This document shows, piece after piece, positions 10,380 through 35,995 of a stretch of 64,000 nt of DNA (position 1 is the stretch's first letter; the number at the start of each line of letters is the position of its first letter). Below the pieces are notes generated by a model that worked only from the letters and a program-made list of their open reading frames with translations, had not been told where the DNA came from and did not search any database. The DNA is from Nitrosarchaeum sp. (GTDB lineage: Archaea; Thermoproteota; Nitrososphaeria; Nitrososphaerales; Nitrosopumilaceae). The stretch is taken from assembly GCA_003569705.1 (NCBI GenBank), contig BGOU01000008.1:1-64000 (forward strand). Direction: 5' to 3'. The translations under genes and the position numbers were made by a program.

Positions 10380-10521
10380 TTTCAGATTTGATCAGTTGAT
10401 CAGATCCTCATTTTGTATGCGTAAATGGAGGCCTATGAATCACAAAATGGTACAATACCATATTTTCATCACAAGCGCCGCCTATTGCTTTACGTATGCA
10501 GAAGATCAAAATTTTCAAATA

Positions 10522-35328: not shown

Positions 35329-35662
35329 AAATTTTCTAAATGCAATACCAATACAAGTATTTCAAAAATACAAAAAACAGTACAACGAGATAAATGGAAA
35401 ATCAAAACGAATGTTGAGTGCTTCCACCCTTTTTCGCCTCATTTCCTTACTGCCGATAATTCTAACAGTTCCTCGTCATGAGTTATACTACTGGATGATA
35501 TTAAAGGAATTCTAGATCATATCGTTACATTTGTCAAGAAAATAATAATATTTTCAAATAAATGTAAATATTATACATGTAGTTAATATTTACAACTTTT
35601 AACAAATTATATGTTAAAAATTATAATAAATAAAAATTATTGTAATAAATATACATACTAAA
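35329..35662. other. Very AT-rich gene-free stretch
   Basis: Bases 35520-35660 are over 80 percent A+T, with many short taaat/atata runs. No gene is supported; longer plus-strand frames here are the reverse of the zinc-ribbon gene. The region precedes the candidate RNA at 35.7 kb and could carry its promoter and regulatory sites. Confidence 0.5.
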
Positions 35663-35664
35663 TC

Positions 35665-35672
35665 TTAAATAC
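35665..35672 (+). promoter_or_regulatory. Candidate TATA box for the 35.7-kb RNA
   Basis: ttaaatac lies about 25 bases before the point where GC content rises (about 35693-35697), which is the right distance for an archaeal transcription start. Confidence 0.4.
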
Positions 35673-35692
35673 TTGAACTTCCTATACTGAAT

Positions 35693-35822
35693 GATGTCGA
35701 TAACCATTTCGGCTGATTAGACTGCGTGACCCTGCAGAACAAAAAAGGCAATCAGGCGTTTGACGTCCTGACCACGAGAGGAAATCTCTCAGTGTTCTGC
35801 AATTGAGGGTTACGCCTTTTTT
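35693..35822 (+). ncRNA. Candidate structured RNA with intrinsic T-run end
   Basis: The outer helix GCGTGACCCT (35724-35733) pairs with AGGGTTACGC (35806-35815), with one G-T pair. Stacked on it, GCAGAAC (35734-35740) pairs with GTTCTGC (35794-35800). Inside are two hairpins: TCAGGCGT/ACG-T-CCTGA (35752-35771) and CACGAGAG/CTCTC-A-GTG (35773-35794). A T-run (35817-35822) follows at once. The unpaired AAAAAAGGC at 35741-35749 is an exact complement of GCCTTTTTT at 35814-35822. GC is far above the surroundings. It does not look like tRNA, 5S, SRP or RNase P RNA to me. About 130 nt if starting near 35693. Confidence 0.6.
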
Positions 35823-35823
35823 A
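35816..35823 (+). terminator. T-run after a strong stem
   Basis: Six T residues directly follow the 3' arm of the 10-bp outer helix, the shape of an intrinsic terminator. Archaeal polymerases also end at T-runs. Confidence 0.5.
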
Positions 35824-35995
35824 TTTTCTAAAACAGATGACACCATAAAAAAAATTTAGAGAAATAATAGGATGTTTTACTACAAACATGTATCCAGAAT
35901 ACAAAAAATAAAATCCCTGTTTTAAAATAAACCAAATAATATTTTTACTAAAAACAATAAAGGATCTATTTTTATTCTAGAAACGTGTAATAGTG

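Follow-up and report, generated by a model that had tools for sequence, protein, structure and literature searches.

Comparative analysis points to a structured RNA family with a conserved 5′ mini-ORF in Nitrosopumilaceae

In dual-function bacterial small RNAs such as SgrS/SgrT, RNAIII/hld and Spot 42/SpfP, one small transcript combines a short open reading frame (ORF) with a structured RNA that is terminated independently. Here we describe an RNA gene family of Nitrosopumilaceae, ammonia-oxidizing archaea that are among the most abundant in the sea and that drive nitrification, which is predicted to share this arrangement and is nearest in kind to the dual-function small RNAs, minus their usual selected peptide. 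Unlike the longer, conserved peptides of those RNAs, the ORF described here is predicted to be leaderless, spans 8-10 codons and is constrained in length, not in sequence, and the RNA domain has no sequence relation to theirs. In rnTrpL/peTrpL of Sinorhizobium, an attenuator leader that is released as a small RNA, a short ORF likewise precedes hairpins and a terminator, and the leader peptide is reported to be active in trans (PMC7298713). Whereas rnTrpL-type leaders are found at the 5′ end of the operon under their control, the archaeal gene stands alone, mostly faces convergent genes and shows no amino-acid bias. tmRNA also joins an ORF of about ten codons to a structured body; in the Nitrosopumilaceae RNA, however, the ORF lies at the extreme 5′ end with its own start codon, and there is no tRNA-like domain. 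Another orphan structured non-coding RNA of planktonic marine archaea is Tan1, an abundant 229-nt RNA of marine group II Euryarchaeota discovered by RNA-seq (PMC5069720). By its description Tan1 is set apart from the present family: it belongs to another phylum, is larger and has no mini-ORF described. Almost nothing on regulatory RNAs of Nitrosopumilaceae appears in the open-access literature that we searched, and the RNA is not described in the open-access papers searched on small RNAs of Nitrosopumilus and Thaumarchaeota. The family occurs in nearly all Nitrosopumilaceae genera, in multiple copies, and with its covariance model a hitherto unlisted RNA gene can be annotated in hundreds of genomes.

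Fold, covariation and distribution

The RNA gene occupies positions 35691-35822 of the plus strand (about 130 nt) in a 64-kb window, the whole stretch of DNA that was analysed (Table 1). An earlier note made from the letters of this DNA had proposed a novel GC-rich RNA in AT-rich surroundings, folded into a 10-bp outer helix (P2), a 7-bp inner helix (P3) and two side hairpins (P4 and P5), and flanked by a TATA-like element and a T-run. Each of these elements is present as described. G+C content is 49% in the RNA interval and 27-28% in its flanks. The minimum free energy of the predicted fold is -47.7 kcal/mol; shuffled sequences average -31.0 (z = -4.66), and none of 200 is equally stable. In the upstream region the note recognized the TATA box and missed both a mini-ORF and a 5′ hairpin, P1; these two are conserved, and any mechanism has to account for both.

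Table 1 Features of the RNA gene in the window
Feature	Position	Strand	Remarks
TATA box TTAAATA	35665-35671	+	Distance from first base to the A of the start codon, 29 nt
Mini-ORF, predicted leaderless, ATG TCG ATA ACC ATT TCG GCT GAT TAG (MSITISAD, stop)	35694-35720	+	
Hairpin P1, within the mini-ORF shortly 5′ of the stop codon	35696-35713	+	Fold; mean z -2.8 over distinct ORF sequences
Spacer from stop codon to P2, 3 nt	35721-35723	+	3-5 nt in 121/125 copies with a detected ORF
P2 5′ strand GCGTGACCCT	35724-35733	+	10 bp with 35806-35815
P3 5′ strand GCAGAAC	35734-35740	+	7 bp with 35794-35800
A-rich joining region AAAAAAGGCAA	35741-35751	+	Kept in the genus of the window and genera near it; lost from conservation in distant genera
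Hairpin P4 TCAGGCGTTTGACGTCCTGA	35752-35771	+	Compensatory changes
Hairpin P5 GAGAG-GAAAT-CTCTC	35776-35790	+	Near-invariant AGGNAAUCU, GNRA-like pentaloop
P3 3′ strand GTTCTGC	35794-35800	+	Compensatory changes
P2 3′ strand AGGGTTACGC	35806-35815	+	Compensatory changes
C and U-run, predicted 3′ end or terminator	35816-35822 (U-run 35817-35822)	+	

Homologues, which the earlier note had named as a check, are present in 17-18 genera. A pattern scan places Nitrosarchaeum and Nitrosopumilus as the nearest named relatives of the archaeal genome of the window. Blastn detects three copies in this genome and matches in 132 of 250 Nitrosopumilaceae genomes; a first covariance model, built on 16 sequences, finds the RNA in 194 of 250 such genomes and 17 of 22 genera. 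A second model, built on 64 sequences and run on 400 genomes of the class, finds it in 200 genomes and 18 of 82 genera, and among the matches listed for the two models in the 400 genomes none lies outside Nitrosopumilaceae. Copies number one to five per genome, and complete genomes usually have two.

Covariation, the second check, gave a clear result. In an alignment of 64 rows (63 distinct sequences), 24 of 30 base pairs show compensatory changes and none of 500 shuffles matches the observed pairing; 96.1% of cells are paired compared with 85.5% after shuffling, percentages that are inflated because the alignment was fitted to the covariance model. Structures slid along the alignment pair just 33-52% of cells. 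Regardless of the fitting, compensatory changes are directly visible, as in the exchanges C-G/U-A/A-U in P2 and A-U/G-C/U-A in P5. They affect 7 of 10 pairs in P2 (97.1% of cells paired), 6 of 7 in P3 (97.3%) and all 8 in P4 (92%); P5 is 98.7% paired, and its AGGNAAUCU columns are invariant or nearly so across the 63 distinct sequences. The minus strand folds about equally well. Paired columns contain 90 G-U cells and 17 A-C cells, however, an excess indicating that the RNA is the plus strand, and the promoter and the ORF likewise disfavour a minus-strand RNA. The RNA gene, its fold, its strand and its promoter are thus established by comparison of sequences.

Searches of Rfam 15 returned only 16S and 23S rRNA for the whole window at the gathering threshold, and only chance matches for positions 35550-35950 at E<=10. 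By this test the RNA is a new family, and the homologues, the covariation, the conserved promoter and the lack of an Rfam match together strongly support the earlier proposal of a novel structured RNA. Individual classes were set aside on further grounds. RNase P RNA and SRP RNA have intact copies elsewhere in the genome (192.7 bits, C7; 110.4 bits, C4), and ARAGORN finds no tmRNA in the window, which leaves tRNA and tmRNA aside. Near its 5′ hairpin the window copy has a box-D-like CUGA, which might suggest a C/D box guide RNA (RUGAUGA/CUGA) and which the other groups lack. Inspection of the region beyond the 3′ stem shows a C, then a tail rich in U, A and C, and no conserved ANA box of the kind that an H/ACA guide RNA would have. 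An IMG/VR pattern scan for a mobile or viral element returned 0 matches, phage and plasmid collections gave none, and the synteny of the main copy is conserved.

Promoter, mini-ORF and peptide

In 123 of 126 copies, the first base of a TTAAATA-like box lies 28-30 nt 5′ of the start codon. The mini-ORF, 8-10 codons long, is likewise present in 123 of 126 copies, covering all 17 genera sampled, and in 1.1% of dinucleotide shuffles; the automated scan used for the shuffle comparison, which sometimes chose the wrong TATA box, scored 116 of 126. Longer ORFs of the same genomes have about 24 exact boxes 10-59 nt upstream, and 9 of these cluster at a distance of 28-31 nt. Start codon and TATA box therefore have the same spacing in the mini-ORF as in longer ORFs, and the transcript is predicted to begin at the start codon (the window copy has an additional in-frame ATG at 35691). 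From these comparisons we infer that the RNA is transcribed and the mini-ORF translated.

Starts are ATG, GTG or TTG and stops TAA, TAG or TGA. On a tree of the core RNA, parsimony places 23 of 24 inferred stop-codon changes among TAA, TAG and TGA and never yields TGG; a single 'GGT' in the output comes from a naming clash between two L094 matches. Start changes within intact ORFs lead only to GTG or TTG, and ORF lengths of 24, 27 or 30 nt plus stop (usually nine codons) change by threes only. Comparison of sequences thus also establishes the start, stop, frame and near-fixed length of the mini-ORF. Three copies have a degraded mini-ORF with a recognizable fold, two of them lacking a start (L074 and L142) and one a stop (L172); these may serve as natural tests of the need for the ORF.

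Such a pattern of change is awkward for a purely structural RNA of a ribonucleoprotein, whether housekeeping or a small-RNA scaffold, in which the AUG would be an initiator element, the UAR an unpaired motif and the mini-ORF incidental. P1 is itself conserved as a hairpin, and near-invariant positions in P2, P3 and P5 are typical of protein-binding RNAs, both as such an RNA would have it. Stops that move among three codons and never to TGG, starts that move to GTG and TTG, and lengths that change only by threes nevertheless make this reading unlikely. In addition, the register of P1 shifts between groups at constant ORF length (MAEKSRQMT, MFVKPLRMA and MSKAIKYIA types), so that neither P1 nor the ORF explains the other away.

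The encoded peptide itself is not conserved. The 71 distinct ORF sequences yield 66 distinct peptides, differences between close pairs at codon positions 1, 2 and 3 number 73, 100 and 57 with no enrichment at the third position, and the synonymous fraction is 0.17 against an expected 0.22. Between genera the peptides are wholly different (MAEKSRQMT, MFVKPLRMA, MTIFVRAMD and MRKDANPID), and selection on their sequence is not apparent. Compared with dual-function small RNAs, the family combines a short ORF and a structure on one RNA conserved at the sequence level, and the selected peptide is missing. A dual-function RNA in which the peptide of 8-10 residues would itself be active, as a signal, regulator or cofactor, with the structured part serving as a stabilizing 3′ UTR or in base pairing, is consistent with the conserved start, stop and frame and with the recurrence of MPKDIIPID and MSLVxKSGD over many species; the diversity of the peptides and the lack of synonymous enrichment make it improbable.

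Translation as a possible signal

Selection is strong on the start, stop and length of the ORF and absent on the peptide, a combination that speaks for translation serving as a signal, and the joining of mini-ORF and fold suggests an RNA whose state depends on a translating ribosome. We tentatively favour, short of firm confidence, a stand-alone small RNA gated by translation, in which the act of translation and not the peptide would matter; a peptide free to vary favours this reading over a bioactive peptide or an incidental ORF. The strong promoter would start transcription at the AUG or about 1 base from it, and a ribosome initiating at this 5′ end would melt P1, halt at the stop codon against P2 and keep the foot of P2 open. 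With no ribosome, P1 and P2 would close. The P2-P3 stem bearing P4 and P5 forms a rigid, highly conserved domain, with transcription predicted to end at the U-run, and this domain, P5 above all, may bind a protein or the ribosome and allow the RNA to report or control translational activity in trans.

The gating step itself we infer purely from geometry. Given the size of ribosome footprints, a ribosome whose A site is occupied by the stop codon would extend into P2. Two stacked ribosomes, moreover, are about 27 nt apart, and initiation and termination on the RNA would therefore be expected to interfere. Against gating, P1 is conserved, so the constraint on the 5′ end could partly be one of RNA structure, and the three copies with degraded mini-ORFs have no canonical ORF. 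It is conceivable, though more doubtful, that the mini-ORF acts as a minigene that would park one terminating ribosome against the RNA domain, the RNA then sensing initiation, termination or collision and acting in trans. We know of no described class that works as a ribosome-gated stand-alone RNA, and translational gating, if true, would make this a new category of RNA.

Genomic context, the A-rich segment and individual copies

In the window's genus and nearby genera the A-rich segment AAAAAAGGCAAUC is almost invariant and unpaired, as would suit a seed for target mRNAs in a trans-acting antisense small RNA. That function is quite improbable for the family, because distant genera keep the structure and the ORF and not the segment.

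Neighbouring genes are diverse among loci, and at most of the 63 loci the RNA faces the next gene on the opposite strand; this convergent neighbour is a 143-aa protein family in 34 loci and purP in 9. The most widespread copy is flanked on one side by genes for a short-chain dehydrogenase and a membrane protein of 69 aa and on the other by that of the convergent 143-aa protein, a second copy faces purP and the window copy faces an MFS transporter. The 143-aa protein (L024:1672-2100 and 33 other loci) has a predicted N-terminal hydrophobic segment and no match in Pfam or NCBIfam, and the stop codon of its gene lies within a few bases of the 3′ end of the RNA. Beyond this gene, some loci have a Snf7-like gene (a weak Pfam match, just below cut-off) or, alternatively, a gene that by eye we take to be a TFB transcription factor. 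A TATA box at fixed distance together with diverse neighbours indicates that the RNA gene stands alone. Leader ORF, hairpins and U-run do have the layout of a transcription attenuator, with the mini-ORF as leader peptide, and at about 10 of the 63 loci a gene on the same strand follows 85-440 nt downstream; convergent genes at most loci, neighbours that differ between copies and peptides with no runs of a sensed amino acid render an attenuator very improbable.

The earlier note had also suggested that AAAAAAGGC pairs with GCCUUUUUU, giving a pseudoknot, a switch or protection of the tail. Its coordinates are exact: in the window copy AAAAAAGGC (35741-35749) and GCCTTTTTT (35814-35822) are perfect 9-nt complements. 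This complementarity is real but shows no covariation, and true tails pair no better than swapped ones. In the A-rich group of close relatives, where both strands hardly vary, the mean complementary run is 6.48 with own tails and 6.55 with swapped tails; in divergent copies the values are 4.57 and 4.60, the level of chance. An excess for own tails in the pooled set (2 of 500 shuffles) reflects the contrast between the two groups. Divergent copies replace the A-run with, for example, CGAAUUGGUG, CUGAAACGCGG or UACAAUUGUGG and the tail with GCCAUUUU, GCCACC or GCCAUUAA, and across relatives the 3′ tail is pyrimidine- or A/U-rich yet variable. Several close relatives retain AAAAAGGC even though their tails have changed to GCCAUCUU or GCCUUCCU. 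Moreover, the base of P2 already includes the GC of the tail GCCTTTTTT; the suggested interaction would thus compete with P2 and cost 2 bp. The pairing is therefore unsupported, and a role for it is scarcely credible.

Some copies merit individual description. The P5 hairpin of L085 carries GGAGGTGATC, a sequence similar to the complement of the 16S 3′ end. Because the G is replaced by A in nearly all other copies, a conserved function in anti-Shine-Dalgarno pairing is unlikely. Elsewhere in the genome of the window, the 11-nt pattern of the P5 motif has four further matches, near the level expected by chance. In the same genome, C6:14915-18090 (L002) and C3:210215-213390 (L003) share an almost identical stretch of about 1.8 kb that contains a copy of the RNA; the stretch either was duplicated recently as a segment or is redundant in the assembly. 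One copy (L119, contig JABSRY010000148.1) is carried by a metagenome-assembled genome labelled Hyphomicrobiales and is most likely on an archaeal contig that was wrongly binned. At L094 (G246:C184:10119-10213 and 10425-10521), two copies lie in tandem about 200 nt apart and differ in their mini-ORFs.
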